Source of the DNA: Robiginitomaculum sp.
GTDB taxonomy: Bacteria; Pseudomonadota; Alphaproteobacteria; Caulobacterales; Maricaulaceae
NCBI GenBank assembly: GCA_002733495.1
Contig: NVVV01000032.1
Coordinates: 1-35,392, forward strand
Length of the DNA stretch: 35,392 bases
Reading direction: 5' to 3'
Of the stretch, positions 1 to 34,101 are shown piece by piece. Below the pieces are notes generated by a model that was given only the letters and a program-made list of their open reading frames with translations, ran no database searches and had not been told where the DNA came from. The translations under genes and the position numbers were made by a program. Numbering within the stretch: the first letter of the stretch is position 1; each line of letters starts with the position of its first letter.

Positions 1-638
1 ACCCGGCCAAGGCGGGTCATAATGGCAGTGGAGAGCATATTTAAAATGGCCTTTTGCGCCGTACCAGCTTTCATGCGGGTCGAGCCGGCAATCAGCTCGC
101 TGCCGGTTTGCGCCAAAATGGCATGATCTGCCACACCCCCTATGGGCGCGTCAGGGTTATTAATAATGCCCAGACACAGGGCTCCGCGTGCTTTTGCTTC
201 GTTAAGTGCGCCCAAAGTAAAGGGGGTGCAGCCACTGGCAGCGACACCAATCACCACATCATTCTTTTCAATATTGGCGGCGCTGATCTGGGCAACGCCA
301 TCCTCGTAAATGTCTTCCGCGCCTTCGGCACTAAGGGTCAGGGCCTCCAGCCCCCCTGCCATGCAAAACACCAGGCGATCTTCCGACCAGCCAAAGGTGG
401 GGCCAAGTTCGGCGCCGTCTTGCACCGCCAGACGTCCCGACGTCCCCGCGCCCACATAAACCAGTCGCCCGCCATGCTTTAGTCGCGCAAAGGCCGCATC
501 GGCAGCCTGGGTAAGTGCGCTTAAAGAGGCTTTCACCGCCGCCATGGCGACCAATTGCCCCTCATACATGGCTTCAACCATGTCGCGGGTCGACCATTGA
601 TCAAAATCACTGAACCGCTGGCTTGCCACTTCCGTCAT
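1..638 (-). CDS. murQ: N-acetylmuramic acid 6-phosphate etherase, C-terminus outside window
   Basis: This cytoplasmic enzyme splits the D-lactyl ether of MurNAc-6-phosphate to give GlcNAc-6-phosphate, a step of cell-wall sugar recycling. I translated the minus strand from the ATG at 638; the frame stays open to base 1, giving 212 codons of a family of about 300. The SIS domain is clear: VYVGAGTSGRLAVQDGAELG, then the two family acidic stretches QDGAELGPTFG and SAEGAEDIYEDG (the positions of the catalytic Glu and its partner in E. coli MurQ), and GSTRMKAGTAQKAILNMLST. It is divergent from the symporter gene at 882, with a 243-bp promoter region between them that holds repeated AATACCATT motifs. 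Identity is secure from motif order; the C-terminal UBA-like end is not visible. Confidence 0.96.
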   Translation of the reverse strand, partial: MTEVASQRFSDFDQWSTRDMVEAMYEGQLVAMAAVKASLSALTQAADAAFARLKHGGRLVYVGAGTSGRLAVQDGAELGPTFGWSEDRLVFCMAGGLEALTLSAEGAEDIYEDGVAQISAANIEKNDVVIGVAASGCTPFTLGALNEAKARGALCLGIINNPDAPIGGVADHAILAQTGSELIAGSTRMKAGTAQKAILNMLSTAIMTRLGR

Positions 639-662
639 GTGAAATCCTGTTTTAGAATTAAG

Positions 663-704
663 AATACCATTTGTGCATTTGTAATACCATTATTGCATAC
701 CATT
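663..704. promoter_or_regulatory. Triple AATACCATT operator between murQ and the symporter
   Basis: Exact AATACCATT occurs at 663-671 and 683-691, with a third near copy CATACCATT at 696-704. They lie 25 to 66 bp upstream of the murQ start in the divergent promoter region. The same 9-mer recurs at 7883-7891, and as its complement at 12054-12062. TGGTAT half-sites are reminiscent of GntR/FadR-family operators (NanR binds GGTATA repeats), but no regulator gene is in the window, so the family is a guess. The rest of 639-881 shows no gene. Confidence 0.6.
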
Positions 705-881
705 GATGATTGATATACATTCAAGTCTCATTTTAGGGGAATTTTTGCGCTAACTATACAGAGATTACACATCATAAGGGGTAATCCTGTGCGGGCGGCA
801 AAAACCATAATCAGCCAGCCGTGAACAGGCAAATGCGCGCCACTGTGGTAAATTTGAAAAAAATGATTCGGGGATGGAAGA

Positions 882-2435
882 ATGGCAAGCAGCTTTGCAC
901 TCTTGGACTGGCTGACAATTGGCGGTTATGTGGGCCTTCTGGTTCTGATGGGCTGGTTCTTTTCACGCAAAAAATCTGAAAATTCGCGGGATTTCTTTCT
1001 GGGTGGTAACACCATGCCCTATTGGGTGGTGGCGGTCTCTGTGCTGGCCACGTCGCAATCGGCGGCCACGTTCTTGGGCGGCCCGGATCAGGGTTATCGC
1101 GGCAATTACACGTATTTATCAACCAATATCGGCACTATTCTGGCGGCCATTTTTGTCGCCAAAGTGCTGATCCCCAAATTCTACGCGTTAAAAGTCACCA
1201 CCGTTTATGAACTTCTTGGCGATCGGTTTAACGCCAACACCATGCGCGCGGCGGGGGCGATGTATCTGGTGGGCCGGGTGTTTGCCAGCGGCTCGCGGCT
1301 GTTTCTGGCCGCCATTGCGGTGGCGATGATTCTTTTTTCCAATATTGATGCGCAGAGCATTGTCATTGCTGCCTTTTTGATGATGGCGCTTGGGTTTCTG
1401 ATCACCTTTTTAGGGGGGATCAATTCGGTGATCTGGAGCGATCTTATCCAGTTCATTATCTATGTGGTGTCGGCGGCTGCGGTGTTATTTGTCTTGTGGC
1501 AGGCCATACCGGCCCCGGCAGATGAGGTATTCAATGCCCTGCGCCACACCCCCGAGGGGCAGAACAAATTACAACTTTTCAATTTTGCCTTTGATTTTTC
1601 ACAGCCCTTTACGATGATTTCCATTGTCACCGGATTGACGCTTCTCTCCATTGGCAGCTTTGGTCTGGATCAGGACATGACCCAGCGCGTGCTAACCTGC
1701 AAGGATGAAAAAGATGGCGCGCGGGCTTTGCTGATCTCCGCCGTGGTGGCCATTCCCGTGGTTTGGCTGTTTGTCTCTATTGGCCAGCTTCTTTACGTGT
1801 TTTACGACCGTCCCGATTTGATGGGGCAGGGCGTTGCCAGCGCGGCGACGGGTTCGTTTGATGGCGAAAAAATTACCATTTTCATGAGCTATATTCTGAA
1901 TGAACTGCCGGCAGGCATGCGTGGGCTGGTCACAATTGGGGTGGTCGCCGCCGCTGTCTCCACCATCAATTCGGGACTGAACTCCATGTCGTCGGTGATT
2001 GTTGAGGATTTTTACAAACCGTGGCGGGAACGGCGCGGCGCTCCGGCCCCTGATCGTCATTATGTGCGCGCGGGCCAGATCTCGATGGGGGTGGTGGGCA
2101 TTGCGCTTTTCCTGATGGCGGTGCTCAGTTTTTACTGGCAGCGTTATACCAATATGCCGCTTTTGAACTTTGCCCTGTCCGTCATGGTATTTTCCTATTC
2201 CGGCCTGTTGGGGGTGTATTTCACCGTCATTTTCACCAAGCGCGGCTCGCACACCTCTGTCCTTTGGGCGCTGGCGGCGGGCTTTGCGGTGACCCTGATG
2301 CAACAGGATTATATTGTCGACAGCCTGCATTTGCCGGAAAGCTTCAAGGGTCTGGCCTTTACGTGGAAATTGTGCATCGGCACGGGGGTTGCGTTTCTGG
2401 TCTGTCTGGCCGGTAATGACCATAAGAAAACCTGA
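882..2435 (+). CDS. Sodium:solute symporter (SSS/SLC5 family)
   Basis: This is a 517-aa inner-membrane protein with about 13 hydrophobic segments, the usual size for SSS transporters that drive uptake with Na+. Family landmarks are the early loop SRDFFLGGNTMPYW, the TM2 stretch ATSQSAATFLGGPDQGY, the loop GLDQDMTQRVLTCKDEKDG and the late segment AAAVSTINSGLNSMSS followed by EDFY, which contains the Ser/Thr pair of the Na2 site. A GGGGA ribosome site precedes the ATG at 882. It is divergent from murQ and 14 bp ahead of an exported serine hydrolase, so the substrate is probably a cell-wall fragment such as an amino sugar, anhydro-MurNAc or a peptide. That substrate assignment is inferred from context only. 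Confidence 0.9.
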   Translation: MASSFALLDWLTIGGYVGLLVLMGWFFSRKKSENSRDFFLGGNTMPYWVVAVSVLATSQSAATFLGGPDQGYRGNYTYLSTNIGTILAAIFVAKVLIPKFYALKVTTVYELLGDRFNANTMRAAGAMYLVGRVFASGSRLFLAAIAVAMILFSNIDAQSIVIAAFLMMALGFLITFLGGINSVIWSDLIQFIIYVVSAAAVLFVLWQAIPAPADEVFNALRHTPEGQNKLQLFNFAFDFSQPFTMISIVTGLTLLSIGSFGLDQDMTQRVLTCKDEKDGARALLISAVVAIPVVWLFVSIGQLLYVFYDRPDLMGQGVASAATGSFDGEKITIFMSYILNELPAGMRGLVTIGVVAAAVSTINSGLNSMSSVIVEDFYKPWRERRGAPAPDRHYVRAGQISMGVVGIALFLMAVLSFYWQRYTNMPLLNFALSVMVFSYSGLLGVYFTVIFTKRGSHTSVLWALAAGFAVTLMQQDYIVDSLHLPESFKGLAFTWKLCIGTGVAFLVCLAGNDHKKT

Positions 2436-2449
2436 CGGGAGTTGTCATT

Positions 2450-4036
2450 GTGAACAATGTCATGAAGTCGTTTTTTATCGCTCTGCTGATTGCCTTTGTG
2501 GGCGCACCGCTGTCTCTGGCCCGCGCCCAAGAGGAACGCGTACCGACCCCGGACCAGATCAAAGCCGTGAGCGAGGCCGCCATTGCCGCCTTTGACACGC
2601 CGGGCATCGCCATTGGCATTGTGCAGGGCGGCAAGGTTTACTTTGTCGGTGGCTTTGGCCAGCGCGACCGACAAGCGGACAAGCCTGTGGACGGGGATAC
2701 GCTTTTTCGCATTGCCTCGACCACCAAGGCGTTTACCTCGGCGGCGCTGGCGGTATTGGTGGACGAGGGCACGGTGCGCTGGGATGATCGGGTGATCGAT
2801 TATCTGCCGGGCTTTCGCATGTCTGATCCGTGGGTGACACGCGAATTTACCATCCGCGATCTTCTGACCCATCGCAGCGGCCTTGGGCGCGGGGCCGGGG
2901 ATTTGATGCTTTGGCCCGAGCCATCGGGATTTTCCCGCGATGAGATCATTTTTAACCTGCGCCATTTGCAATCTGTGACCAGCTTTCGCAGCCGCTATGC
3001 CTATGACAATCTGCTTTATATTGTTGCCGGTGAAGTGGTGGCTCGTGCCAGTGGCACGTCGTATGAAAATTTTGTGCAAACCCGCATTCTGGACCCGCTG
3101 GGCATGGGATGTTTTGCTGGTCAGATAGAGAAGAAAAATTTACGCAATGTGGCCATTCCCTATGGTCTGATTGAAGATAAGATACAGCCGATACCCCGCA
3201 ACAAGATCAGCGGTGCCATTACCGCCTCGCAACCGGCAGGCGGGCTGGTGTGTAATGCGCGCGGCATGGCGACATGGATGCTGACGCAATTGGGCGGCGG
3301 CAAAGGACCGGACGGCACGCGCATTTTCAGCAAAAAACAACGCAATGAAATGTGGAAATCGCAAACCATTTTGCGGGTGTCTGCGTTAGAGAGAAAACTG
3401 GATAACACCCATTTCAAAACCTATGCGCTGGGCTGGCGCAAGGATGATGTGCATGGCTATGAGGTGATCTCGCACACCGGCACATTATCGGGCATGCAGG
3501 CCTATGTAACCCTGGTGCCGGAGCTGGATAATCTGGGTATTGTGGTCCTCAATAATGGTTCAAACTATGGCGCACGCAATGCGGTGACGCAAAGCCTGCT
3601 TGGCGCCTTTATGGGACAGCCTAAACGCGATTGGGTGGCGTTTTACCATGAGCGCCAACTGGCTGCGGCCAAGCGCAATCAGGCCAGGAAAAAGGCCGAA
3701 GGCTGGCAGGGGTCGGGCACGGTGTTGCGCCCCCTTGACGATTATAAGGGGCTATATAAAGACCCGTGGTTCGGCAAGGTGGATATTGCGAAGACGAAAA
3801 AGGGCTTACGCTTTTTGGCGCACAAGTCGGTCAATCTGAAAGGTTGGCTGGAACCTTTTGACCAGAACACCTTTATTGTGCGCTGGGATAATCGCGGCTT
3901 TGGCGCGGATGCCTATGCGCGCTTTGAAACCGATTTCAAAGGTAATATTGCGGGCTTGACCATGCGCCTTGTGGACGAGGGCGCAGACTTCAGCTTTGAC
4001 TTTCAGGATCTGAATTTCACCCGCATTTATGACTAA
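2450..4036 (+). CDS. Exported beta-lactamase-family (S12) serine hydrolase with DUF3471-like C-terminal domain
   Basis: This is a penicillin-binding-type serine hydrolase of 528 aa starting at GTG 2450, chosen because ACGGGAG lies 8-9 bp upstream. A signal peptide ends near residue 26 (SLARA-QE), placing the enzyme in the periplasm. The class C/DD-peptidase triad is complete: S90-T-T-K93, Y185-D-N187 and H342-T-G344. The last ~100 residues, from DDYKGLYKDPWFG, form the beta-rich domain (DUF3471 type) often appended to this family. The members include D-aminopeptidases, DD-carboxypeptidases, esterases and AmpC relatives, so the exact substrate is open. The position behind a symporter next to murQ favours a D-amino-acid peptide from peptidoglycan. 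The 3' end overlaps the convergent epimerase gene by 4 bp. Confidence 0.88.
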   Translation: MNNVMKSFFIALLIAFVGAPLSLARAQEERVPTPDQIKAVSEAAIAAFDTPGIAIGIVQGGKVYFVGGFGQRDRQADKPVDGDTLFRIASTTKAFTSAALAVLVDEGTVRWDDRVIDYLPGFRMSDPWVTREFTIRDLLTHRSGLGRGAGDLMLWPEPSGFSRDEIIFNLRHLQSVTSFRSRYAYDNLLYIVAGEVVARASGTSYENFVQTRILDPLGMGCFAGQIEKKNLRNVAIPYGLIEDKIQPIPRNKISGAITASQPAGGLVCNARGMATWMLTQLGGGKGPDGTRIFSKKQRNEMWKSQTILRVSALERKLDNTHFKTYALGWRKDDVHGYEVISHTGTLSGMQAYVTLVPELDNLGIVVLNNGSNYGARNAVTQSLLGAFMGQPKRDWVAFYHERQLAAAKRNQARKKAEGWQGSGTVLRPLDDYKGLYKDPWFGKVDIAKTKKGLRFLAHKSVNLKGWLEPFDQNTFIVRWDNRGFGADAYARFETDFKGNIAGLTMRLVDEGADFSFDFQDLNFTRIYD

Positions 4037-5124
4037 ATAGCCGTCAGGTTTTTCACTGCCCTGATGCCAAGGCCCGGGGCATCAGAAAGTGTAATCTTTG
4101 GTCCGTCAAAGTGTGCCCCGCCAGTGACCGGATCGAAGGCACACAGGCTTGGCCCATCCAGATCAATCAGGGTAATGGTTTCGGCCCGGGCCACGGCCAG
4201 GTGGGCGGCGGCGGCAACACTGATACTGCTTTCCAGCATACAGCCGATCATACAGGGCACTTCGTGTGCGGCGGCAATATCAATGATTTGCAGCGCGCCC
4301 GATATACCGCCGGTTTTCATCAGCTTGATATTGATAATATCGACGGCATCGCGTGCCAAAAGCGCACGCACCTGCGCGGCGTTAAAGGCGCTTTCATCGG
4401 CCATAACCGGGGTGCTGACATGACGCTTTATGGTGGCCAGACCGTCTATGTCGTCGGCCTTGACCGGCTGTTCAATGAATTCAAGCTCTACCCCTGTGCC
4501 TTCCAGCGTTTCAAGTATCTGGATGGTCTCGGCGGCGCTCCAGCCCTGATTGGCATCAAGACGCAGGCGGGCGCGGCCCTTTGCGACGGCATGGATCGCC
4601 TTAATGCGCTCTATGTCTTCTGGCCCGCCTTTGCCCACTTTTATTTTCAGGGTTTCATAGCCCTGATCTATGGCGTGCAGGCTGTCGGCAACCATTTTAT
4701 CCACCGTATCGACGCTGATGGTGAGGTCGGTGCAAAGCTGCGGCGTGCCGCCCCCCAGCACCTGATAAAGCGGCTGGTTTTTGTTTTGCGCATAAAGGTC
4801 ATAGATGGCAATTTCTGCGGCGGCTTTGGCGCTGGAATTATGGACCATACAGCGCTGAATACTCTGGGTGATGTCTTCCAGATCGGTAATATCCTTGCCG
4901 ATAAGGAGGGGCATGATATAGGCGCGCAAGGCCTCTATGATCGACCCATGGGTGTCGCCGGTAATCACTGCGGTGGGCGGGGCTTCGCCATAGCCGGTCT
5001 GGCCGGTATCAGTCTCAACGCGCAATACAATGTCTTGCACATCGGTCACGGTGCGCAAGGCGGTTTTAAACGGCGTGACCAGAGGTACATTCAGCATAAA
5101 TAGCGAAAAGCCGATGATTTTCAT
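4033..5124 (-). CDS. Dipeptide epimerase (L-Ala-D/L-Glu epimerase type, enolase superfamily)
   Basis: This 363-aa cytoplasmic enzyme of the muconate-lactonising subgroup would convert L-Ala-D-Glu from peptidoglycan to L-Ala-L-Glu. All catalytic positions are present: K160-I-K162, metal ligands D190 (in LRLDANQG), E218 (FIEQP) and D243 (MADES), the second acid-base Lys K267 (INIKLMKTGG) and D321-L-D323. These positions nearly coincide with those I remember for B. subtilis YkfB. It follows the NlpC/P60 gene by 15 bp on the same strand, the pairing seen in ykfB-ykfC type operons. An alternative is an N-acyl-amino-acid racemase of the same fold (DgcA type), but the endopeptidase next door argues for the dipeptide substrate. 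There is no signal peptide, so the substrate must be imported. Confidence 0.9.
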   Translation of the reverse strand: MKIIGFSLFMLNVPLVTPFKTALRTVTDVQDIVLRVETDTGQTGYGEAPPTAVITGDTHGSIIEALRAYIMPLLIGKDITDLEDITQSIQRCMVHNSSAKAAAEIAIYDLYAQNKNQPLYQVLGGGTPQLCTDLTISVDTVDKMVADSLHAIDQGYETLKIKVGKGGPEDIERIKAIHAVAKGRARLRLDANQGWSAAETIQILETLEGTGVELEFIEQPVKADDIDGLATIKRHVSTPVMADESAFNAAQVRALLARDAVDIINIKLMKTGGISGALQIIDIAAAHEVPCMIGCMLESSISVAAAAHLAVARAETITLIDLDGPSLCAFDPVTGGAHFDGPKITLSDAPGLGIRAVKNLTAI

Positions 5125-5139
5125 GGCAGATACGAGGCC

Positions 5140-6552
5140 CTAGGGAAGAGTTTTGATGGTGGTGGCGCTTTGCAAATAACTGCGATCAATTGATGAGCGC
5201 AAGGGCAGCATGGGGGTGATCGACACCCCGTTCAGCGTACCTTTATAGAGCGTGCCATCCGCATTCAAAAGCCCAAGCCCGTGCACATCATGAATGACAT
5301 AAGGTTTGCCCTTGTCATGGCCGACCAGCATCAGAACATGGCCCGGAATATAGATCAGATCACCGACCTTGCCTCGTTTTAGCCGGTCAATCTTGTCCGC
5401 CAGGGGGGCGTCCTTTTCATAGCGCGCATTGATGCCAATAGCGCTGCGGTCCTGATCGCCTGAATTGCGCGGCAGTTTGATGCCAAAGCTCTTATACACT
5501 TCGGAGACAAAGCCGGTGCAGTCGCGTCCGTTAAAGCGATGGCCCCAGCCATAACGCTCGCCCAGAAACTTGAAGGATTGGCGAATAATGTTTTCCCGGG
5601 TGAAGGGCAGATAGCCCACATGCACATCGGCTTTGCGCTGAATCAGTGCGTGTTTCAGCGCCAATGTGCCATCACCCTTGCGTACCGGCATCAACACCAT
5701 ATGGCTAAGATAGGGGTTTTGCCCGTAAAGATTATGCGCCAGCGCCTTGGGCCGCGATAAGGGCAGGCGCACCCCCATGTCCAATTGCACTTCGGACACT
5801 TGCGGCACTTCGGGGTTATAGACGGTGGACACCTTGTCCCCAGTCACAACAAGAAAGTTTTCGGTACTGGCATAGCCCAGAACCGCGTCCCGTGTGCCGA
5901 TGGCAATGGCCTCTACGGGTACCCAGGCGATATAATTATAAGATTGCACCAGCGCCCATTGCCCATCGGTGCTGGTGTGTAAAACTGCCATTGCATCGCC
6001 CGGAAAAAGTGTGGATTCCTGAAAGCGTTCTATATCGCGATCCTTCGCCCCTTCACTGAAAACCAGATCGGGCGTGGGGTAGCTACGCATTGATGTGCGC
6101 CGCACGGCGAGCGCAAAGCTTACCGCGTTCTGATCCGTGACGGCGTTAAGATTAAGCATAGCCTCATAGCGTGCAAAATCTGCCTCTGTGACCGGCGTGC
6201 CGTCTTCATACATGCGCGGGTTTTTGGAGATGCGGCTCACCGTGCGCATGCGTGCGATCAGATCATCACGGTCCAGCGTATCGGCCATGGCGTTAAGGTC
6301 GTAAAGCGTGGGGTCTTGGGCAGTATTTTTGGCGTTAAAGGTGGTAATACCCTCGGGCGATAACAGCACCTTGTTCATCTTGGGCTTGATCCAGAAATCC
6401 GCATTCAGATGCTTGGGTGACACCCCGATAACGTCAGAGACAAACGGGTCATCCAGGCCCATATCGGTGCCAGAGTGTTGATTGTTTTCATTGCCACAGG
6501 CGGCAAGAAGAAGCGCCAGCGCAGAGCCAAGAAGGAGAGTTTTCGTATTCAT
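5140..6552 (-). CDS. Lipoprotein NlpC/P60 endopeptidase with SH3b domains (gamma-D-Glu|DAP type)
   Basis: The 470-aa protein begins at ATG 6552; a longer frame to 6618 exists but only this start yields a lipoprotein signal, with lipobox LLAAC and C19. Domain order: N-terminal stabilising region (about 45-140), SH3b region (about 145-300, including RRTSMRSYPTPD) and a C-terminal NlpC/P60 peptidase. The likely triad is C345 (NGRDCTGFVS), H405 (PGHVLML) and H421 or H424 (IHDVHG). This architecture matches the gamma-D-glutamyl-L-diamino acid endopeptidases (YkfC and DVU_0896 type), which cut between D-Glu and DAP when L-Ala is free. The lipid anchor implies periplasmic action. It lies 13 bp after the DUF819 gene and 15 bp before the epimerase, so the three form an operon. 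Confidence 0.9.
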   Translation of the reverse strand: MNTKTLLLGSALALLLAACGNENNQHSGTDMGLDDPFVSDVIGVSPKHLNADFWIKPKMNKVLLSPEGITTFNAKNTAQDPTLYDLNAMADTLDRDDLIARMRTVSRISKNPRMYEDGTPVTEADFARYEAMLNLNAVTDQNAVSFALAVRRTSMRSYPTPDLVFSEGAKDRDIERFQESTLFPGDAMAVLHTSTDGQWALVQSYNYIAWVPVEAIAIGTRDAVLGYASTENFLVVTGDKVSTVYNPEVPQVSEVQLDMGVRLPLSRPKALAHNLYGQNPYLSHMVLMPVRKGDGTLALKHALIQRKADVHVGYLPFTRENIIRQSFKFLGERYGWGHRFNGRDCTGFVSEVYKSFGIKLPRNSGDQDRSAIGINARYEKDAPLADKIDRLKRGKVGDLIYIPGHVLMLVGHDKGKPYVIHDVHGLGLLNADGTLYKGTLNGVSITPMLPLRSSIDRSYLQSATTIKTLP

Positions 6553-6565
6553 AGCGCGCTCATCA

Positions 6566-7729
6566 TCATGAAAGAATGGAGAGGATTTTACCGACCAGCA
6601 AACCGCCCCCTGTACCAATAATATAACCCAACATGGCCATCAAAACGCCGATCGGGATCAAGGCCCGCGAATAGGCCGCCGCCAAAATGGGGGCCGAGGC
6701 CACGCCGCCAATATTGGCCAAAGAGGCCACCCCGCAGGAGAACAGGTCGAGACGGAAAACCTTGGCGGCGAGCAGCATAAACACCCCGTGCAGCATAAGG
6801 ACCATCAGGCCCGCAATGATGAACAGCGGTGCCTGCGTCAGTTCGGCAAAATTGGCCCGCGAGGCAATCAGCGCAATTATGCCGTAAAGTAAAATGGTGC
6901 CCAGCTCGCTGGACCCGGCAATGCGCCCCAGCCGCGTCATGGCCCCCAGCGCGCCCAGTATAGTGACGATCAGCACCGTCCATGTGGTTTGGGAGAAAAA
7001 GGCAGAAGTGGGCAAAAAGTTCGCGCCATATTGAGACAAGGCCGAGGCCATCAGCCCCGCCCCGATCAGAAATAACAAGGAGGCGGCGTTCATTTCGCTT
7101 TCGTCTTTTTGGGCGCGGGCCTCGATTTTTGCACTGATTTTTTCGATTAGGCTGGTATCACTTTTTGTCCAGATGTTGAATTTGGCGGCATGGGGCACCA
7201 GGGCCAGAAGGATCATCACCCACAGGGCATAATCAATAGAATCCATCAACAGGGTATAGCCCATGCTGGCATCAGGAATATTGAGCGCGCCCTGCACCGC
7301 GACCATATTGCCGGTGCCGCCCATCCAGCTACCGCTGAGCGCAGCAAAGGTCATCCATGCGCTGTCCGGCAACCAGGTTTTCAAGATCAGAAAGGTGATA
7401 ACAAAGCCCGCCCCAATGCTCAGCGAGGCGGCAATAAAGGCGGTCAGCATACGCGGGCCAAGGGCGGCGATCTGGCGAATATCGCCCTTTAGCAAGAGAA
7501 GGAAAATCATTGCAGGCAATAAATTGCCCTTCATCGCCTTATAGGTGGCGGTAATGGCGTCCGTATCACTCCACAGTTTGAAGGTGGAAAGCAGCATGAT
7601 GATAAAATAAAGGATCACAATGCCCGGCAGAATTTTGAAAAGCCGAAGCGTGCTGTTGTTTTCTGTCCAGGCGATCGCCCCGCAAACAAAAAATAAAACC
7701 GCCAGATAGGCAAAGCCGCCAGTGATCAT
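6566..7729 (-). CDS. DUF819 family membrane protein (putative permease)
   Basis: This 387-aa protein is almost entirely hydrophobic, with about 11 membrane segments, and matches the DUF819 (YjcL-like) family in size and in features such as LSGSWMGGTGNMVAVQGAL and VASLANIGGVASAPILAAAY. The repeated glycine-rich stretches in the two halves resemble inverted-repeat carriers. Function is not established for the family. As first gene of the operon DUF819, NlpC/P60, dipeptide epimerase it is a good candidate for the importer of L-Ala-D-Glu or of the tripeptide into the cytoplasm, which the cytoplasmic epimerase requires. That role is inference. AAGGG lies 7 bp before the ATG at 7729. The divergent promoter region carries TGGTATTAGA operators. 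Confidence 0.85.
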   Translation of the reverse strand: MITGGFAYLAVLFFVCGAIAWTENNSTLRLFKILPGIVILYFIIMLLSTFKLWSDTDAITATYKAMKGNLLPAMIFLLLLKGDIRQIAALGPRMLTAFIAASLSIGAGFVITFLILKTWLPDSAWMTFAALSGSWMGGTGNMVAVQGALNIPDASMGYTLLMDSIDYALWVMILLALVPHAAKFNIWTKSDTSLIEKISAKIEARAQKDESEMNAASLLFLIGAGLMASALSQYGANFLPTSAFFSQTTWTVLIVTILGALGAMTRLGRIAGSSELGTILLYGIIALIASRANFAELTQAPLFIIAGLMVLMLHGVFMLLAAKVFRLDLFSCGVASLANIGGVASAPILAAAYSRALIPIGVLMAMLGYIIGTGGGLLVGKILSILS

Positions 7730-7811
7730 GGGAAAACCCTTATGCCCGTGACAGAAGAAAACGCGCTGCGCCCGTATTCATACCATGGAAATACACCGGG
7801 GGAAGGCATTT

Positions 7812-7891
7812 TTGGTATTAGATTGGTAACAACACGTTGATTGGTTTTGCCTTCCCCTTGCGCTTATGAAAGGGTATCGTCTAATACCATT
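7812..7891. promoter_or_regulatory. Inverted TGGTATTAGA / TCTAATACCA operator pair in a divergent promoter
   Basis: TTGGTATTAGA at 7812-7822 is followed directly by TTGGTAAC (7823-7830). TCTAATACCAT at 7880-7890 is its inverse with 10 of 11 bases matching, and it includes an exact AATACCATT at 7883-7891. GGTAT at 7873-7877 extends the second site into GGTAT-N6/7-ATACC. A weaker CATACCATGG lies near 7780. The region separates the DUF819 operon (minus) from the NhaC-type gene (plus) and shares the motif with the murQ and dipeptidase promoters. Two sites about 60 bp apart could loop or serve one promoter each. Confidence 0.6.
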
Positions 7892-7945
7892 AAACGCCTG
7901 AGATTCTCAAAACAGCAGGCGCGCAAAAACTTTAGGGGAATTTCA

Positions 7946-9322
7946 ATGGGCTGGCTTACCGTTCTGCCGCCACTGGTGGCGATTATTGTTGTGGTCTGGC
8001 GCAAGGAAGTGATTCTGGCCCTGTTCCTGTCGATCTTTACCTCCGAAATTCTGATGATCGCGAACAAAACGCCGCTTTTGCCGCTGACCGGATTTATCAA
8101 CGCGCTGGAACGCATTACGGCGGTGTTTGCCGATCCGGGCAATACCCGCATTTTGATCTTCTCTTTGCTGATCGGGGCCTTGCTGGCCTTTATCCGGGTG
8201 TCTGGCGGGGTGACCGCCATGGTGGACAAGCTGGTCAATAGCGGTTTGGCCAAGGGGCCGGTCTCGGTTGGCCTGCTGACCACACTGACCGGGATTGTCA
8301 TCTTTATTGAATCCAATCTTAGCGTTCTGACCGCCGGGATTTTGTCTCGCGGCCTGTTCGACAAATACGGCATGAGCCGCGTGCGTCTGGCCTATATTAT
8401 TGATAGTACCAGTGCGCCGGTATGTATTCTGATCTTGCTAAACGGCTGGGGTGCCTATGTGCTGGCGCTGCTTAGCGGTTATGAAATGGAACAAACGCCA
8501 GCGCAGATTTTGTGGGGCACAGTGCCGCTGAACTTCTATGCGCTGGTGACGCTGGCTATTGTATTTTACACGGTAATCACCAACAAAGTGTATGGTCCGA
8601 TGAAAGAGGCCGAGATTAGAACCGAAGCCGCGCCGGTTGATTACCAGCATGAATACCCGCCGACCAATGCGCTGTTTATGGTGTTGCCGCTGGCCACCAT
8701 GGTGTTTGGCATGATCGGCTTTATGCTGTGGACCGGCCATGGGGATCTGGCCAAGGGCAGCGGGTCTAAATCCGTGCTTTACGCCACGGCTTTGGCCTGT
8801 GTTGTGGGCTATCTGATGATGTTGTACAGCCGTAAATTCAGCCATGTTCAATTGGTGGAAATTGGCTTTAAGGGCATGGGCGAAATCCTGCCCCTTGTGA
8901 CCATAGTGCTGTTTTCTCTGGCGCTGGGGGCCAGTTTAAAAACCCTAGGCACAGGCATCTTTATTGCGGGCATGGTGGGCGATTATCTGCCGCTCTTCTT
9001 GGTGGTGCCGGTGCTCTTTCTTGCGGGAGCGTTGATTTCGTTTACCACAGGCACGTCATGGGGCACGTTTGCGATTCTCATTCCGCTGGGCGTTCCTCTC
9101 ATACAGGAACTAGGCCTGCCGCCATCCTTGGTGCTGGCGGCAATTCTTGGCGGCGGGGTGTTTGGCGACCATTGCTCGCCGATCTCAGATACCACAGCGG
9201 TTTCGGCCATTGCCAGCGGCAGCGGTCTGTTGGAACACGTGCGCACCCAATTGCCCTATGCGCTCTTTGCCGGGGGCATAACGCTGGTGCTTTATGTGAT
9301 CGCCAGCCTGATCATGATTTAG
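7946..9322 (+). CDS. NhaC-family Na+/H+ antiporter-like carrier
   Basis: The start is ATG 7946, 6 bp after an AGGGGAA ribosome site; the upstream in-frame extension to 7841 runs through the operator and is rejected. The 458-aa product has about 11 membrane segments. It shows the NhaC hallmarks: IFIESNLSVLTAGILSRGL followed by YIIDSTSAPVC, and late in the protein the signature GVFGDHCSPISDTTAVSAIA. NhaC homologues exchange Na+ and H+, and several relatives carry amino or organic acids. Here it sits divergently from DUF819, under the same operator and next to lysA and a dipeptidase. It may therefore move DAP, an amino acid or a dipeptide, or simply recycle the Na+ that enters through the SSS symporter. 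Sequence alone cannot choose. Confidence 0.87.
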   Translation: MGWLTVLPPLVAIIVVVWRKEVILALFLSIFTSEILMIANKTPLLPLTGFINALERITAVFADPGNTRILIFSLLIGALLAFIRVSGGVTAMVDKLVNSGLAKGPVSVGLLTTLTGIVIFIESNLSVLTAGILSRGLFDKYGMSRVRLAYIIDSTSAPVCILILLNGWGAYVLALLSGYEMEQTPAQILWGTVPLNFYALVTLAIVFYTVITNKVYGPMKEAEIRTEAAPVDYQHEYPPTNALFMVLPLATMVFGMIGFMLWTGHGDLAKGSGSKSVLYATALACVVGYLMMLYSRKFSHVQLVEIGFKGMGEILPLVTIVLFSLALGASLKTLGTGIFIAGMVGDYLPLFLVVPVLFLAGALISFTTGTSWGTFAILIPLGVPLIQELGLPPSLVLAAILGGGVFGDHCSPISDTTAVSAIASGSGLLEHVRTQLPYALFAGGITLVLYVIASLIMI

Positions 9323-9348
9323 GTTTTTTGTGTTTAATCCGGGCCGGT

Positions 9349-9417
9349 CCATCCTTCGACAAGCTCAGGATGAGGAGAATTATATGCGGCCCTCATTCTG
9401 AGCTTGTCGAAGGATGG
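9349..9417. repeat. Long inverted repeat (REP-like) between convergent genes, probable bidirectional terminator
   Basis: Arms at 9349-9375 and 9391-9417 are 27 bp each and pair with a single mismatch; they begin CCATCCTTCGACAAGC and surround a 15-bp AT-rich loop. It sits between the 3' ends of the NhaC-type gene and lysA. A decayed relative lies at 29225-29336. This CTTCGACAAGCTCAGGATGAGG-type palindrome is a familiar dispersed element in alphaproteobacterial genomes. Confidence 0.85.
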
Positions 9418-9449
9418 AAGCGCATTTGTCTCGCAATTGGCTTCAGGCC

Positions 9450-10712
9450 TCAGATCCAGTCTGGCACGCTTTCCTGTTTGAGAATATCCTCAAGGTCCGG
9501 GCGCGTGCGGATAACGCTAAACTGGTCATCTTTAACCAGAACTTCGGGCACTAATGGGCGGGTGTTATATTGCCCGGCCTGCACGGCACCGTACGCCCCG
9601 GCAGACAGCATGGCGACCAGATCACCGCTTTGCATAACGCTAAGGCGACGATGAGTGGCAAAGGTGTCGCCGGTTTCGCAAACCGGGCCAACAATATCAT
9701 AGGTCTCGGTCTGATCGCTCATTGGTTCTTTCACTGGCATAATGGCGTGATAGGCCCCATAAAGCGCCGGGCGGACCAGATCATTCATCGCCGCATCCAG
9801 GATCAGAAAATTGCGCGCCGTGCCATGTTTTACATAGCGGACACACGAGAGCAGCACCCCGGCATTGCCAGCAATGGCGCGGCCCGGCTCGAAAATCATT
9901 TTCAGGTCCAGCCCTTTGGTGTGCCGGGAAACCATGTCCATATAATCGGCGGCGCTGGGCAGGGTGTCTTCGTCCTGATTGTAAACAATGCCCAGACCGC
10001 CGCCCATATCAAACGTGAGGATATTATGGCCATCACGTCGCAAGTCACGGACCAGATCCAGCCCCTTTAAAAGCGCCGTTTCAAACGGGGCGAGGCTGTC
10101 GATCTGGCTGCCGATATGTATGTCTACGCCGGTCACTTCAATGCCCGCCATACTGTCGGCTTGTTTGTAGACATCCCGGGCCTGATCAATATTGACGCCA
10201 AATTTGTTTTCAGCTTTGCCGGTTGAGATTTTTTCGTGCCCGCCGGCGCTGACATCGGGGTTGATGCGCAAGGCAATGGCGGCCCGTGTGTTCAGCGCGC
10301 AGGCCACATCATTTAACGCAATAAGTTCAGGCGAAGATTCGATATTAAACTGGTAAATTCCGGCCTTTAACGCCTTGTGCATTTCATCGCGGGATTTACC
10401 AACTCCGGAAAAGACGATTTTTTGCGGGGCAATACCGGCGCGCAAGGCCCGCTCCAGCTCGCCGCCACTGACCACATCGGCCCCGGCCCCAAGAGAGGCC
10501 AAAAGGGACAAAACCGCCAGATTGGAATTGGCCTTGACCGAATAGGCAATCAAAGCCCCCATACCCTCGCAGGCATTGGCGAAGGCCTGATAATTCTCGG
10601 CCAGCGCCGTGGCGCTATAGACATAAACCGGGGTGCCCACGGCTTTTGCTATGCGGCTCAAGGGCACGTTTTCGGCGCACAATTGCCCGTTGGTATAGTG
10701 AAAATTCTGCAT
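9450..10712 (-). CDS. lysA: Diaminopimelate decarboxylase
   Basis: This 420-aa PLP enzyme of fold III converts meso-diaminopimelate to L-lysine and CO2 in the cytoplasm. Visible are the PLP lysine K60 in YSVKANSNLAVL, H199 in IHIGSQI, the phosphate-binding loop MGGGLGI (236-242), E275-P-G-R278, C345-E346 from the partner subunit in VCETGDTF, and Y374 in AGAYGAVQ. Length is normal for LysA. It lies 47 bp after the M19 dipeptidase on the same strand and is not beside argH, where lysA commonly sits in proteobacteria. It is therefore either the biosynthetic gene moved into this locus or a catabolic copy that feeds wall-derived DAP into lysine. Whether a second lysA exists elsewhere cannot be seen. 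Confidence 0.94.
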   Translation of the reverse strand: MQNFHYTNGQLCAENVPLSRIAKAVGTPVYVYSATALAENYQAFANACEGMGALIAYSVKANSNLAVLSLLASLGAGADVVSGGELERALRAGIAPQKIVFSGVGKSRDEMHKALKAGIYQFNIESSPELIALNDVACALNTRAAIALRINPDVSAGGHEKISTGKAENKFGVNIDQARDVYKQADSMAGIEVTGVDIHIGSQIDSLAPFETALLKGLDLVRDLRRDGHNILTFDMGGGLGIVYNQDEDTLPSAADYMDMVSRHTKGLDLKMIFEPGRAIAGNAGVLLSCVRYVKHGTARNFLILDAAMNDLVRPALYGAYHAIMPVKEPMSDQTETYDIVGPVCETGDTFATHRRLSVMQSGDLVAMLSAGAYGAVQAGQYNTRPLVPEVLVKDDQFSVIRTRPDLEDILKQESVPDWI

Positions 10713-10759
10713 AACAAATCCCGGTCTGGCTGTGCGGTCAGGTTAAACGGTGCGCCGTT

Positions 10760-12010
10760 CTATTGATGCGCGTGGGCCTGAACCGCCGCAAGAACACGCA
10801 ACAGATTGCCGCCCCAGATTTTTTCAATATCGGCTTGGCTATAGCCACGCTTAAGCAGCGCTTTGGTGACATTGGGGGTTTCGCTGACATCCCACCAGCC
10901 TTCGATTTTACCGCCGCCATCAAAGTCAGAGGCAATGCCCACATGCTCCACTCCGACCAGCTTGGCCACATAGTCGATATGGTCAACCAGATCGGCCACA
11001 CTGGCCCCGGGCGCAAGGGATTTGGAGGCTTCCATTTTTTCGTCAAAGAGAGCTTCGGTCGCTTCGTCCATGGCCAAAAAGGCCATGTCGTCTTCCAGAT
11101 CCATTTCCTTGCGCACGGCGGCTTTGAAGGCCTGTTGTTCCGGGGTGAGGTTTTTTAAATACCCGCCATAGGCGACGATCTGAATGACACCGCCCTTGGC
11201 CGCCAGTGCCTTTAATTGTTCGTCGTCCAGATTGCGTGGATTATCGACCAGCGCCTTGACCCCGGAATGGGATGCAATCACCGGCACAGCCGATAAAGCC
11301 ACGGCCTGCATCATGGTATCCTTGCTGGTGTGCGAGACATCGACCATGATCCCGGCGTCATTTAAGGCGACCACAAGGTCTTTGCCCAGCGCAGACAGGC
11401 CACCGTACAGGGTTTTGGTTTCGCCCCGGCTGTAGCTGGGGTTAGAGCTGTCGGCAAACTGGTTGTGGCCCATATGGGTAATGCCCAGATAGCGCACGCC
11501 GCGTTTTTCCCACAAGGCCACATCATCGACGGAATTGCCCAAAGGATAAGCATTTTCCATGCCCAGAAATATGGCCTTTTTACCACTTTTATGGATCTGA
11601 TGGGCCTCGTCGGCGGTGCGCGCCAGTGTCAGTTGGTCGGCATATTTTTCGGTCAGGCGCGAAATCGCTTTATAGCGCGTTTGCGCGATTTCGCGCGCTT
11701 TGGCCACGCCCGCATCATTCATTTCGCCTTGCGGCGTATAAACAATCATGAAAGCCGCATCCAGACCACCGTCTTGCATTTTCTGGACGCTGATCTTGCC
11801 TTTTTCATTGGTCCAGGGGTCCATGTCTTCGGCAATGTAGTCCAGCTCAATATCAATATGGCTGTCCAGCGCCAGCAGGTTTTCATGCACAAGGGCAGGG
11901 TCTAACGCCTGCGCCGTCTCGGCGCTTTGCGGGGCTGTGGCCTCAGAGCAGGCAATCAGGGCGAGGGGCAGGCACAAACAGGCCAGAGAGATAGGGCGCA
12001 ACACAATCAT
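10760..12010 (-). CDS. Lipoprotein membrane dipeptidase (peptidase family M19)
   Basis: The ATG at 12010 gives a 416-aa protein with a lipoprotein signal (ALIAC, C21); the longer frame from 12094 crosses the operator and is rejected. The zinc ligands expected of renal-dipeptidase relatives are present: H51-x-D53 (DSHIDIELD), E152 (FLGMENAYP), H227 (VDVSHTSKD) and H248 (VIASHSG). The C-terminus has GIASDFDGGG and IEKIWGGNLLRVL. M19 enzymes cut dipeptides, including those with a C-terminal D-residue. Anchored on the periplasmic side, it could hydrolyse L-Ala-D-Glu or other wall dipeptides. It leads a two-gene operon with lysA and has its own AATGGTATT operator 44 bp upstream of the start. Confidence 0.93.
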   Translation of the reverse strand: MIVLRPISLACLCLPLALIACSEATAPQSAETAQALDPALVHENLLALDSHIDIELDYIAEDMDPWTNEKGKISVQKMQDGGLDAAFMIVYTPQGEMNDAGVAKAREIAQTRYKAISRLTEKYADQLTLARTADEAHQIHKSGKKAIFLGMENAYPLGNSVDDVALWEKRGVRYLGITHMGHNQFADSSNPSYSRGETKTLYGGLSALGKDLVVALNDAGIMVDVSHTSKDTMMQAVALSAVPVIASHSGVKALVDNPRNLDDEQLKALAAKGGVIQIVAYGGYLKNLTPEQQAFKAAVRKEMDLEDDMAFLAMDEATEALFDEKMEASKSLAPGASVADLVDHIDYVAKLVGVEHVGIASDFDGGGKIEGWWDVSETPNVTKALLKRGYSQADIEKIWGGNLLRVLAAVQAHAHQ

Positions 12011-12053
12011 CTTCCTTTTGATTCCAACAGCGCCGCCAGGGCGGGTGCTGTTC

Positions 12054-12081
12054 AATGGTATTATATTTTGGCATTGGTAGC
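12054..12081. promoter_or_regulatory. AATGGTATT operator upstream of the dipeptidase-lysA operon
   Basis: Exact AATGGTATT at 12054-12062 is followed by a second half-site, GCATTGGTAGC at 12071-12081. This is the same word, on the opposite strand, as the murQ and NhaC-region sites. It lies 44-71 bp upstream of the dipeptidase start, a reasonable place for a repressor. The remainder of 12011-12219 shows no gene. Confidence 0.55.
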
Positions 12082-12219
12082 ATATTTCTAACACAGGTTA
12101 CAGGCCATTTTGCCGCAAGGCCTGCACCTTTAATCGCTTTATTATCGCCCGAGCCGATCATCACTCTACGGTCATTGACCAGACCTTCCAAAAAACCATG
12201 CTGGCCCTGGGGCGCGCGC

Positions 12220-13824
12220 TCATGACTGAAACCGGCGGTGCGATCCGCCATCCTTGATAATCACATGGGCCGCATTATGCCCGGGCGCGCCGGTCACCCC
12301 GCCGCCCGGATGCGTGCCTGCGCCGCACATATAAAGCCCCTTTACCGGGCCGCGATAGCTGCCATGGCCCAGCACGGGCCGCGCTGACCAGAGCTGATCA
12401 ATGCTCATATTGCCATGCATAATGTCGCCGCCAATCAGGCCAAACTTGTCCTCCAGCCCTTTGGGCGAGAGGTGCGTCTGGCCCACAATCGAGGCGCGAA
12501 AGCCCGGCGCATGGGCCTCCACAGTATCCAGAATCACATTGGCGGCGGCGCTTTCTTCTTCGTCCCAATTTCGCCCATCCGGCAAAGTGGGTGCAAATTG
12601 CTGGCAAAACAGACTGGCCACATGGCATCCCGGCGGGGCCAGACTGTCATCCACCACCGAGGGGATCAGCATTTCCACAATGGGGTTTTTCGACCAGCCA
12701 TCGCGCTTGGCATCCAAAAAGGCACGGTCCATATAATCCAGCGTCGGGGCCAGAATAATACCGCTTTGATGATGCGGGCCGGGTTCGGGCCTGGCGGTAA
12801 AAATGGGCAATTTATCCAGCGCCACATTCATGCGAAATGTACCCGATCCGGTGACAAAGGAGCGGATGCGTTTTAGAAAATCAGCAGGCAAATCGGCGGC
12901 ATTCATCAGACGCTCATACAGCAATCGTGGTCCCACATTGGCGATAACGCGGGGTGCCATGATCTCTTCACCGCTGTGCAGGCGCACCCCGGCGGCTTTG
13001 CCCTGATCCACCATAACGCGGTCCACCGGGCTATCAAGGCTAATCTCTACCCCCAGATCAGTGCACACCTTGGCCATAATCTGCGTGATGGTGCCCATGC
13101 CGCCAATGCAGTGCCCCCACGCGCCTTTAATGCCGTTCACTTCGCCAAACACATGGTGCAGCAATACATAGGCGCTGCCCGGCGTATCCGGGCTGGCATA
13201 ATTACCCACCACCGCATCAAAGCCAAAGGCGGCCTTGACCGCCTCGCTTTCAAACCAGCCATCAAGGTAAGTGCGCGCGCTTTTGGTAAACAGGTCCATC
13301 ACGTCGCGTTTTTGCGCAATTGACAATTTGCTGACCGGCAGGCCCTGCACTGCCGCGCTAATAAGGGTGTTCAGGCCTTCGCCAAGGTTGGGCGGTGCCT
13401 TCAGGGCCAGAGCCCGCAACACATTGGCGACATTTTCAAGGGCGTCATAATAGGCCGGCAGAACGTCTGCATCATGATTGGAAAATTTGCGAAACTCTTT
13501 TTGTGTGGCTTCCAGACTGCCGCCCAGCATTAGATAGCCGCCGTCTTCTTGTGGCAAAAAATTGGAAATAGGCCGGGTGATCACCCGATAGCCATGCCTG
13601 ACCAATTCCATGTCTTCGATAACTTTGGGCTGTAACAGACTGACCGTATAGCTGGCCACCGAGTTCTTGAAACCGGGGTGAAATTCCTCGGTCACGGCGG
13701 CGCCGCCAACGACGCCCCGGCGCTCGACGATCCGTACCTTCAGGCCCGCTTTGGCCAGATAAAATGCGCACACCAGGCCATTATGGCCCGCGCCGATAAT
13801 CAGGGCATCACAGGTTTTTATCAT
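12220..13824 (-). CDS. PYROXD2/phytoene-desaturase-like FAD oxidoreductase
   Basis: This 534-aa flavoprotein has an N-terminal Rossmann dinucleotide site IIGAGHNGLVCAFYLAKAG (residues 9-27) with the acidic ribose-binding end VERRGVVGGAA. Near the C-terminus is the FAD-binding motif GLYMCGAGTHPGGGVTGAPG. The GAGHNGL variant and overall length fit the PYROXD2 group of the carotenoid-desaturase-like superfamily rather than true CrtI, and no other carotenoid gene is nearby. The substrate is unknown. Its ATG overlaps the stop of a short Rieske-oxygenase remnant (ATGA), suggesting translational coupling. Such oxidoreductases can sit beside Rieske aromatic-ring or quaternary-amine oxygenases, so the pair may once have worked together. 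Confidence 0.88.
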   Translation of the reverse strand: MIKTCDALIIGAGHNGLVCAFYLAKAGLKVRIVERRGVVGGAAVTEEFHPGFKNSVASYTVSLLQPKVIEDMELVRHGYRVITRPISNFLPQEDGGYLMLGGSLEATQKEFRKFSNHDADVLPAYYDALENVANVLRALALKAPPNLGEGLNTLISAAVQGLPVSKLSIAQKRDVMDLFTKSARTYLDGWFESEAVKAAFGFDAVVGNYASPDTPGSAYVLLHHVFGEVNGIKGAWGHCIGGMGTITQIMAKVCTDLGVEISLDSPVDRVMVDQGKAAGVRLHSGEEIMAPRVIANVGPRLLYERLMNAADLPADFLKRIRSFVTGSGTFRMNVALDKLPIFTARPEPGPHHQSGIILAPTLDYMDRAFLDAKRDGWSKNPIVEMLIPSVVDDSLAPPGCHVASLFCQQFAPTLPDGRNWDEEESAAANVILDTVEAHAPGFRASIVGQTHLSPKGLEDKFGLIGGDIMHGNMSIDQLWSARPVLGHGSYRGPVKGLYMCGAGTHPGGGVTGAPGHNAAHVIIKDGGSHRRFQS

Positions 13825-23417: not shown

Positions 23418-23837
23418 TTATTTGTCCTCTTTGAATATTAAGAATTCCTCCCCCGCGTGCGGGGGAGGTGGGCGCGAAGCGCTCGGAGGGGGGAGTTCAG
23501 CGGCTATGGCTTCAAGCACGCCGTCAAGGTTTTCATAAACATCGGGATTGGTGACACGTAAAATATGCCAGCCTTGATTTTCCAGAAACGCTGTACGTCG
23601 TTGGTCATGTGCAATTTCCATTTCTGTTGAATGTGTCGCCCCATCAATTTCAATAATCAGCTTTTCTGCGATACAGGCAAAATCAGCTATGAAAGGACCA
23701 ACAGGGTGCTGTCGGCGAAAACCGTACCCATTCAACTGCTTCTTGCGTAAGCGTGACCACAAGAAAACCTCTGCATTGGTCAAAGACCTGCGCAATTGCT
23801 TGGCGTATTTACGTGATCTATTTTCAGTTTCGCGCAC
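23418..23837 (-). CDS. DUF559 (VSR-like) putative endonuclease, copy 1
   Basis: This 139-aa protein starts at GTG 23837. It has the DUF559 pattern: basic N-terminal helix TNAEVFLWSRLRKKQLNGYG, RRQHPVGPFIADFACIAEK and LIIEIDGATHSTEMEIAHDQ, with Asp and Glu-x-Asp placed as in PD-(D/E)XK very-short-patch-repair nucleases. By my count it is 84/131 (about 64%) identical to the copy at 25148-25576. The C-terminus (PPPSASRPPPPHAGEE) is encoded by the GC-rich hairpin at 23447-23468, as also in copy 2. The stop lies one base from the fadJ ATG. Whether it is an active nuclease or a passenger of the repeat unit is unknown. Confidence 0.85.
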   Translation of the reverse strand: MRETENRSRKYAKQLRRSLTNAEVFLWSRLRKKQLNGYGFRRQHPVGPFIADFACIAEKLIIEIDGATHSTEMEIAHDQRRTAFLENQGWHILRVTNPDVYENLDGVLEAIAAELPPPSASRPPPPHAGEEFLIFKEDK

Positions 23838-23949: not shown

Positions 23950-25155
23950 TCAAACCCGCTCAATAATGGTTGCAGTGCCCATGCCGCCGCCCACACACAA
24001 GGTGGCGAGGCCGATTTGCTTGTCTGTGCGTTCCAGCTCGTCCAGCACCGTGCCCAAAATCATCGCGCCGGTAGCCCCCAAGGGGTGGCCCATGGCAATG
24101 GCACCGCCATTGACGTTCATAATGGCCGGGTCGATGTCAAAGGCTTGCATATGGCGCAAGACCACGGCAGCAAAGGCTTCGTTCAGCTCGAACAAATCAA
24201 TATCGCCAATGTTCATGCCGGCCTTTTTAAGGGCCTTTTCGGTGACCGCAATCGGGCCGGTGAGCATGATGGTCGGCTCGGAACCGATGGAGGCCATGGA
24301 ACGCAGGCGCGCGCGGGGTTTTAAGCCGGCTTTTTCTCCGGCTTCCTTTGAGCCGATCAGGACGGCGGATGCGCCATCAACAATTCCCGATGAATTGCCG
24401 CCGGTGTGAACGAAATTGATATATTCCACTTCGGGGTATTTCTGGATGGCGACATTATCCAGGCCAATAAATTCAGACAAAGCCTGAAAGGCGGAATTCA
24501 AACCGCCAAGGCTTTGCATGTCGGTGCCCGGGCGCATGTGTTCGTCATGATCCAGAATGCACAGGCCAAGCTGGTCCTTGACCGGAACAACCGAGTTTTT
24601 AAACCGGCCTTCGCTCCAGGCGTGCGCGGCGCGTCTTTGACTTTCCACCGCATAGGCATCCACATCGTCGCGGGAAAAGCCGTACTTTGTGGCGATCAGA
24701 TCAGCGGAAACCCCTTGGGGGACGATATTATGATCAAAAGCAATTTCAGGGTCGACGCCCATGGCGCCGCCATCTGATCCCATGGGGACGCGGCTCATGG
24801 ACTCGACACCGCCTGCAACAACGAAATCGGCCTCGCCGCACATGACTTTTGCCGCGCCAATATTGCACGCTTCCAGCGCGCTGGCGCAAAAGCGATTGAC
24901 CTGAAACCCGGCTGTGGTTTCGGCGTAATTGGCGTTGATCACCGCCGAGCGGGCAATGTCTGCGCCTTCTTCACCAACCGGGGTCACACAGCCCAAAATC
25001 ACATCATCGACCAGCGAGGTATCAAGACCATTGCGATCCCGTACGGCCTCTAATTGCTGGGTGGCCAGTTGCAGGGCAGTAATTTCGTGCAAAGAGCCGT
25101 TTTTCTTCTTTCCACGCGGTGTGCGAATGGCATCGTAAATATAGGCTTCAGTCAT
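23950..25155 (-). CDS. fadA: Acetyl-CoA C-acyltransferase (3-ketoacyl-CoA thiolase)
   Basis: This enzyme cleaves 3-ketoacyl-CoA with CoA in the last step of beta-oxidation. From ATG 25155 it is 401 aa; the longer frame to 25245 runs through the upstream REP hairpin and is rejected, while AGGAGAA stands 7 bp before this ATG. The nucleophile is C90 ([12 protein letters not shown]); the family motifs [25 protein letters not shown] with H357, and LCVGGGMG with C387 are intact. The start overlaps the DUF559 copy 2 stop by 8 bp. It could also work as a biosynthetic-type thiolase, but the acyl-CoA dehydrogenases and fadJ beside it favour degradation. Confidence 0.92.
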
Positions 25156-34004: not shown

Positions 34005-34101
34005 ACGCGTGTTTTTTCGTACGTTGAGTAAAAACGATGCATTAAAATATGATACTTAGAAAACCAATGAGTTCTTGCACTAGAAGAATATGGAGCCTGA
34101 A

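Follow-up and report, generated by a model that had tools for sequence, protein, structure and literature searches.

In Bacillus subtilis, MurQ, NamZ and an amidase are grouped in the murQRP-namZ-nagZ-amiE region, with import by a phosphotransferase system (PTS), and the peptide branch lies apart in a ykf operon. Within that operon (ykfABCD), which encodes the epimerase YkfB and the endopeptidase YkfC, a dipeptide epimerase gene adjoins one for an SH3b-NlpC/P60 protein (PMC2954226). The murTKQ/ampG operon of Tannerella forsythia combines an importer of the sodium-symporter superfamily, a kinase and MurQ for the scavenging of external N-acetylmuramic acid (MurNAc), with no peptide-branch gene or LysA named in the available parts of its sources (PMC5790795, PMC5388701); and the N-acetylglucosamine (GlcNAc) clusters of Caulobacter crescentus, an organism without MurQ, bring together a TonB receptor, NagA, NagB and a GntR regulator, again with no peptide branch described in the available sections (PMC13046382). 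Here we describe a locus with likenesses to all of these, found in a 35,392-nucleotide stretch of DNA from Robiginitomaculum sp. (contig NVVV01000032.1; ‘the window’): its nine adjacent genes at positions 3–12010 probably represent the peptide half, plus a truncated murQ, of an accessory peptidoglycan-utilisation locus, a reading that we draw from sequence comparisons.

As in the murQ region of B. subtilis, MurQ, NamZ and an amidase belong together in this locus, with an SSF-family symporter where B. subtilis has PTS import; and, as in ykfABCD, a dipeptide epimerase gene stands next to an SH3b-NlpC/P60 gene. Unlike ykfABCD, the carriers are of the DUF819, NhaC and SSF types, LysA, an M19 dipeptidase and a sugar branch are linked to the set, and the NlpC/P60 enzyme has Asn at the position of Asp256 in YkfC; relative to the T. 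forsythia operon, the locus has a BadF-family NagK and a TonB-type receptor. Every enzyme family is known, as are partial loci (ykf, murTKQ and nag clusters). The novelty, to judge from the literature searched, lies in their union: a single accessory locus brings together TonB-type import, NamZ, an amidase, a complete sugar branch, a peptide branch, a dedicated LysA and a common promoter element; no description of this gene combination was found in the full-text literature searched, a body of work from which subscription journals are mostly absent.

The window is the whole of one contig (C52) of a 3.19 Mb genome (G000; 82 contigs, 87.9% complete, 5.15% contaminated), whose closest named relatives, judged by the NlpC gene, are Robiginitomaculum metagenome-assembled genomes. 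All nine genes are open, in the order given in a preliminary description of this DNA, and Pfam agrees with the families stated there in nine of nine cases (MurQ-type SIS; SSF; S12 Beta-lactamase with DUF3471; MR_MLE; SH3b1 with NlpC/P60; DUF819; Na_H_antiporter of the NhaC type; LysA domains; Peptidase_M19); neither DUF819 nor M19 has an NCBIfam family. By strand, they fall into five transcription units. The first is murQ itself (3–638, minus), which encodes the first 212 residues of a MurNAc-6-phosphate etherase before being cut by the contig edge. The second (plus) comprises the SSF-family sodium:solute symporter (882–2435; PF00474), a candidate MurNAc or amino-sugar importer, and the S12 serine hydrolase (2450–4036; PF00144 and PF11954; STTK, YAY and HTG motifs), a candidate periplasmic D-Ala-releasing peptidase whose top NCBIfam match is AmpH, below cut-off. 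The third (minus) runs from the DUF819 carrier (6566–7729; PF05684, 325 bits) through the NlpC/P60 enzyme (5140–6552; PF12913 and PF00877) to the epimerase (4033–5124); the fourth is the NhaC-type antiporter-family carrier (7946–9322, plus; PF03553), which may transport amino acids or diaminopimelate (DAP); and the fifth (minus) holds the M19 dipeptidase (10760–12010; PF01244, 330 bits; best solved relatives 3b40 and 2rag) in tandem with lysA (9450–10712). A lipobox search predicts the NlpC/P60 and M19 proteins to be lipoproteins; the S12 hydrolase has an N-terminal hydrophobic, signal-like stretch without a lipobox, and neither feature is seen in LysA or the epimerase, the latter being predicted cytoplasmic (signals were assigned by motif and eye, without a trained predictor).

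The first account of the window took it to hold a complete muropeptide-catabolic locus. Its nine genes are real and form the peptide half, but the window is incomplete. A second contig of this genome (C32; stretch L034) supplies the outer-membrane receptor, NamZ, the amidase, the kinase, NagA, NagB-II and the regulator, and at its end has a full murQ of 294 residues and the symporter's first 24 residues. The last 955 bases of C32 match positions 1–955 of the window from end to end, with 849 of 956 aligned columns identical (89%) and identical stretches at both ends. Because this overlap looks like two murQ alleles at an assembly break, we infer that the two contigs adjoin; alleles 89% identical at abutting contig ends in turn suggest a mixture of strains in the assembly. 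Both copies belong to the MurQ family by score (NF003915, cut-off 168: 267 bits for the window fragment, 341 for the full copy), falling below the cut-off of 302 for the equivalog TIGR00274 (210 and 274.9, respectively). The remaining genes of C32 encode a NamZ muramidase, an Amidase_2 lipoprotein with a peptidoglycan-binding domain, a large receptor, a BadF-type NagK (GlcNAc kinase), a tetratricopeptide-repeat (TPR)-sulfotransferase protein, NagB-II, NagA and a GntR-UTRA regulator. The receptor itself has no solved-structure match and only CarboxypepD_reg in Pfam; we name it TonB-type because a Kordiimonas homologue (26% identity) carries both TonB barrel and plug domains.

In the relative G002 the same gene order, without the epimerase, is contiguous over 24 kb (contig C66: 401–24169); in G012 the set is divided between two contigs. 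Overlapping murQ in G002 is a gene for a GlcD-type flavin adenine dinucleotide (FAD) oxidase, a sensible neighbour because MurQ releases D-lactate, the presumed substrate of GlcD. By gene content, then, import, depolymerisation and both the sugar and peptide branches are present in one conserved cluster, as seen in C66 of G002 and in a matrix of the 12 genomes that have this NlpC/P60 gene. The matrix rests on fetched stretches of 8.6 to 55 kb, such that absences can be artefacts, and drops matches below 45% identity (NagB-II excepted), so that more distant homologues (the Kordiimonas receptor, for one) are scored as absent. NlpC and DUF819 occur in all 12; murQ and S12 in 11; SSF, receptor, amidase and NamZ in 10 (NamZ including matches at 45–48% in G018, G034, G062, G063 and G064 that may be paralogues); M19 in nine; NagK, NagB-II and NhaC in eight; NagA, GntR and lysA in seven; GlcD in six; a PRK09061-like amidohydrolase in four; and the epimerase in three. 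The conserved co-occurrence by which the original idea was to be judged has thus been looked for, and the idea survived. The TPR-sulfotransferase gene (L034, 13847–15409, and relatives) is likewise present in 10 of the 12 loci, with no obvious role in peptidoglycan metabolism.

Some NlpC match is found in 25 of 61 relatives, full-length in only six, and murQ exceeds its cut-off in exactly the six of 37 family genomes with a full-length NlpC (chance 4e-7 were the genomes independent, which they are not, four of the six being one genus). Among the six genomes behind loci L037–L043, five have murQ; the exception is Kordiimonas (G066), whose peptide part is accompanied by a MurR/RpiR-type regulator. 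A class-wide search with the NlpC alignment returned three of 385 genomes at E<=1e-60, namely G000 and two small genomes whose 20-kb stretches held none of the other query genes apart from one distant amidase match. This distribution bears on an alternative in which the locus serves to recycle the growing cell's own wall and not to feed on external peptidoglycan. AnmK is indeed present in the genome, and the same enzyme families are understood to serve recycling elsewhere. We nevertheless consider this alternative unlikely: AnmK occurs in 35 of the 37 family genomes (G000 included) versus six of 37 for the full-length locus NlpC, so that core recycling appears separate from the locus; the locus includes a TonB-type receptor and lipoprotein enzymes predicted to be periplasmic; and C. 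crescentus, without MurQ, recycles by the MurU route (PMC13046382).

The promoters of the peptidoglycan-utilisation locus share a short element. Two copies of AATACCATT, 20 bp apart, are found between murQ and the symporter gene (663–691, plus), with TAATACCATT occurring between DUF819 and NhaC (7882–7891, plus) and again ahead of M19-lysA (12054–12063, minus). Written as AATACCAWT, the element has four sites in the 35-kb window (663, 683, 7883 and 12054), all of them in locus promoters and spread over three gaps, to which a 10-base version of the element is likewise restricted within the window; a palindromic GntR-type operator (TGGT-N-ACCA) has no site in these three gaps, and it was a wider promoter-gap scan that led to the non-palindromic form. 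Since a lipobox follows 12010 and the common element lies between 12010 and 12094, the M19 gene probably starts at the ATG at 12010 rather than at 12094. Within this one genome (G000), AATACCA is present in five of seven promoter gaps, a count equalled in 1 of 200 shuffles, and TAATACCA in four of seven (0 of 200); the element was discovered on these same data, the shuffles serving as the fair test, and the M19 gap was added by hand because the listed start of the open reading frame (ORF) covers it. Of 43 matches over the window and 11 related stretches, 35 fall in the examined promoter gaps, which amount to about 14 of 261 kb, with no match in the Kordiimonas stretch. Five of the 21 TAATACCAWT sites in the G002 genome (C66: 2786, 8546, 14056, 20167 and 24220) fall in the five promoter gaps of its locus, and in each of the four genus genomes searched the element precedes M19-lysA. 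To judge from its coordinates, a site that recurs near glmS is probably within a coding sequence; a scan of 1–12400 for the sigma-70 consensus, with 5 sites versus a mean of 10.1 in shuffles, is uninformative. That the GntR protein of the locus is the regulator acting through AATACCAWT is a guess.

LysA scores well above the cut-off for DAP decarboxylase (TIGR01048, 467.6 bits versus 297.9), and a standalone lysA is found in exactly four of 18 genus genomes: those with the locus. The 17 genus genomes besides G000 also give a weaker LysA match (E 9e-35 to 4e-44), in frames of 868–904 residues in 16 and 465 residues in one (six of these matches contain one stop); all three frames scanned are bifunctional aspartate kinase/DAP decarboxylases over cut-off. 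In G002, G006 and G012 the locus LysA thus coexists with a fused aspartokinase-DAP decarboxylase. Further afield, G064 and G066 carry a second standalone lysA away from the locus, G061 has the locus copy only, and G018, G034, G062, G063 and G065 each have one standalone lysA outside the locus and none inside. G034 is the cultured Robiginitomaculum antarcticum DSM 21748, whose locus (L041) is without an epimerase as well as without lysA. A tree of 19 LysA sequences unites six locus copies from Robiginitomaculum-like genomes in a clade with 93/93 support, just short of the program's star; three non-locus copies are their sister group, and the nine together have 95/95. The Kordiimonas locus copy, on a long branch of its own, looks to have been recruited independently, its placement being unsure. 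The genus profile, the tree and the fused enzymes led us to drop the notion that the locus lysA, single-copy in G000, is simply the biosynthetic gene. They support the view that, within the genus, the standalone lysA is an extra, locus-borne copy, and the proposed DAP-to-lysine sink emerges better supported than when first stated.

A related possibility, that lysA and M19 are housekeeping bystanders beside the locus, would fit with lysA being the sole copy found in G000 and G061 and with its absence from five of the 12 loci. We judge it improbable, given the second DAP decarboxylase match elsewhere in G002, G006, G012, G064 and G066, the separate clade formed by the locus LysA of six genomes, and the placing of the promoter element before M19-lysA throughout the genus genomes searched. 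As for a chitin or GlcNAc utilisation locus (TonB receptor, NagK, NagA, NagB-II, GntR) beside unrelated peptide genes, the Caulobacter clusters do contain a TonB receptor, NagA and NagB (PMC13046382) and the top-scoring models for NagK and NagB-II, neither reaching cut-off, are those named after SO3507 and SO3506, but this is very improbable when NamZ, Amidase_2, MurQ and NlpC/P60 act on peptidoglycan, the sugar and peptide halves have a common promoter element and conserved linkage, and the scanned locus genes included no recognisable chitinase.

Returning to the enzymes of the peptidoglycan-utilisation locus, the SH3b-NlpC/P60 protein was aligned across 11 of the 12 known sequences (the partial G064 copy being omitted) and compared with the residues that define the YkfC subfamily, in which Asp256 binds the free L-Ala amine (PMC2954226). 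The catalytic Cys346, His406 and His422 are invariant in all 11, as is Tyr208, which aligns with the SH3b tyrosine (Tyr118) of 3h41 (chain numbering worked out by hand); the Asp-Cys motif and the Arg named for YkfC are also kept. The position of Asp256 is, however, occupied by Asn364 in 11 of 11, giving PRNS as in 3m1u versus PRDS in 3h41. The enzyme's best solved match is 3m1u, which likewise has Asn here and which we take to be a lysin that cuts peptidoglycan itself; on the strength of this shared residue, the enzyme may accept muropeptides still bound to sugar. The enzyme thus has the family, catalytic residues and SH3b tyrosine of YkfC, but is not a textbook YkfC.

The epimerase has the L-Ala-D/L-Glu epimerase 1JPM as its best solved relative (304 bits) and possesses the KxK, DANQGW, EQPV, ADES and KLMK motifs, with the Asp/Glu/Asp metal ligands and second Lys in place; it remains below the NCBIfam equivalog cut-offs (best 245.8 of 500). 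An earlier statement that all its catalytic residues are present is borne out, with the qualification that this is the least conserved member of the locus: at E<=1e-40 it is found in one of 61 relatives, the window's own genome, and of the six genomes behind L037–L043 two have a locus epimerase and a third a 38%-identical homologue elsewhere. The PRK09061-like amidohydrolase (L032, 11136–12689; L037, 12532–14091; L038, 11438–13009; L039, 11442–13010) adjoins NlpC in three epimerase-free loci and the epimerase itself in a fourth (L037), and perhaps offers an alternative way of handling D-Glu derivatives or peptides; this identification comes from an NCBIfam scan of the L032 copy and Pfam scans of L032 and L038, the others resting on 68% identity.

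Of the carriers, the symporter is closest, among solved structures, to 5nv9, which is described as a putative sodium:solute symporter and which we take to be the sialic-acid transporter SiaT. The M15 peptidases, relevant to what follows, include peptidoglycan peptidases. The MurNAc importer of T. forsythia belongs to the sodium-symporter superfamily (PMC5790795); DUF819 is placed in the CPA/AT transporter clan (PMC8396727), and in 75 Neisseria meningitidis genomes a DUF819 gene follows one for an M15 peptidase (PMC12671195). The available parts of the literature examined state no DUF819 substrate; because DUF819 adjoins NlpC in 12 of 12 loci, we propose that it carries a dipeptide or DAP.

Several observations weigh against the reading of a single accessory locus. 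The junction of C32 and C52 is ours rather than the assembler's, in an assembly with the level of contamination given above, and the C32 allele has one altered copy of the promoter element. With 20 sites in G000 versus 13 for the reversed control, TAATACCAWT can hardly be called rare across the genome, and for that reason we claim no genome-wide regulon. The fused aspartokinase enzyme was not found in G000 (88% complete, searched down to E 1e-12), where lysA is the only copy seen. Lastly, lysA, M19 and the epimerase are absent from five, three and nine of the 12 fetched loci, respectively (some stretches being short), murQ occurs without a full-length NlpC in five genomes of the order beyond the family, and Kordiimonas keeps the peptide part with no murQ in its genome.

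Taken together, the locus could operate as follows. Muropeptides would cross the outer membrane by the TonB-type receptor, the SSF symporter would import MurNAc, and DUF819 and NhaC would take up L-Ala-D-Glu, DAP or free amino acids. In the cytoplasm, the sugars would be phosphorylated by NagK, MurQ would split D-lactate from MurNAc-6-phosphate, and NagA and NagB-II would lead to fructose-6-phosphate, the lactate being consumed in some relatives by the GlcD-type oxidase. Where present, the epimerase would convert L-Ala-D-Glu to L-Ala-L-Glu, and the dedicated LysA would make lysine from recovered meso-DAP without recourse to the fused enzyme that serves biosynthesis in other genus members; one regulator, possibly the GntR protein, may control the set via the AATACCAWT elements. 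We infer from the gene content that this would permit growth on cell-wall debris. A bolder form of the proposal—a singly regulated, self-contained wall-eating programme, with DUF819 as the murein dipeptide/DAP permease and the locus's own LysA bypassing the fused aspartokinase-DAP decarboxylase—is tentative, and we hold it to be somewhat doubtful. If the main reading is right, some marine Robiginitomaculum-type bacteria would have an accessory route to feed on other bacteria's walls, in which one control governs both the sugar and the peptide branch and a catabolic DAP decarboxylase is kept apart from biosynthesis; the substrate of DUF819 carriers could then be predicted and tested, and murQ, SH3b-NlpC/P60 and DUF819 together would mark peptidoglycan feeders in metagenomes.

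Elsewhere in the window, a CrtO/phytoene-desaturase-like FAD oxidoreductase (12220–13824) lies upstream of the M19-lysA unit and has no match in the 16 other stretches searched. Two DUF559-type ORFs (23418–23837 and 25148–25576; the first scanned in Pfam), 64% identical over 131 residues, each stand directly upstream of an apparent beta-oxidation gene (fadJ type and thiolase, by eye). At the far end, a KAP-family P-loop NTPase gene (34090–35391) is cut by the contig end within a stretch of low G+C (39%) near an apparent groEL (by eye), and may represent a mobile or defence-like insertion.

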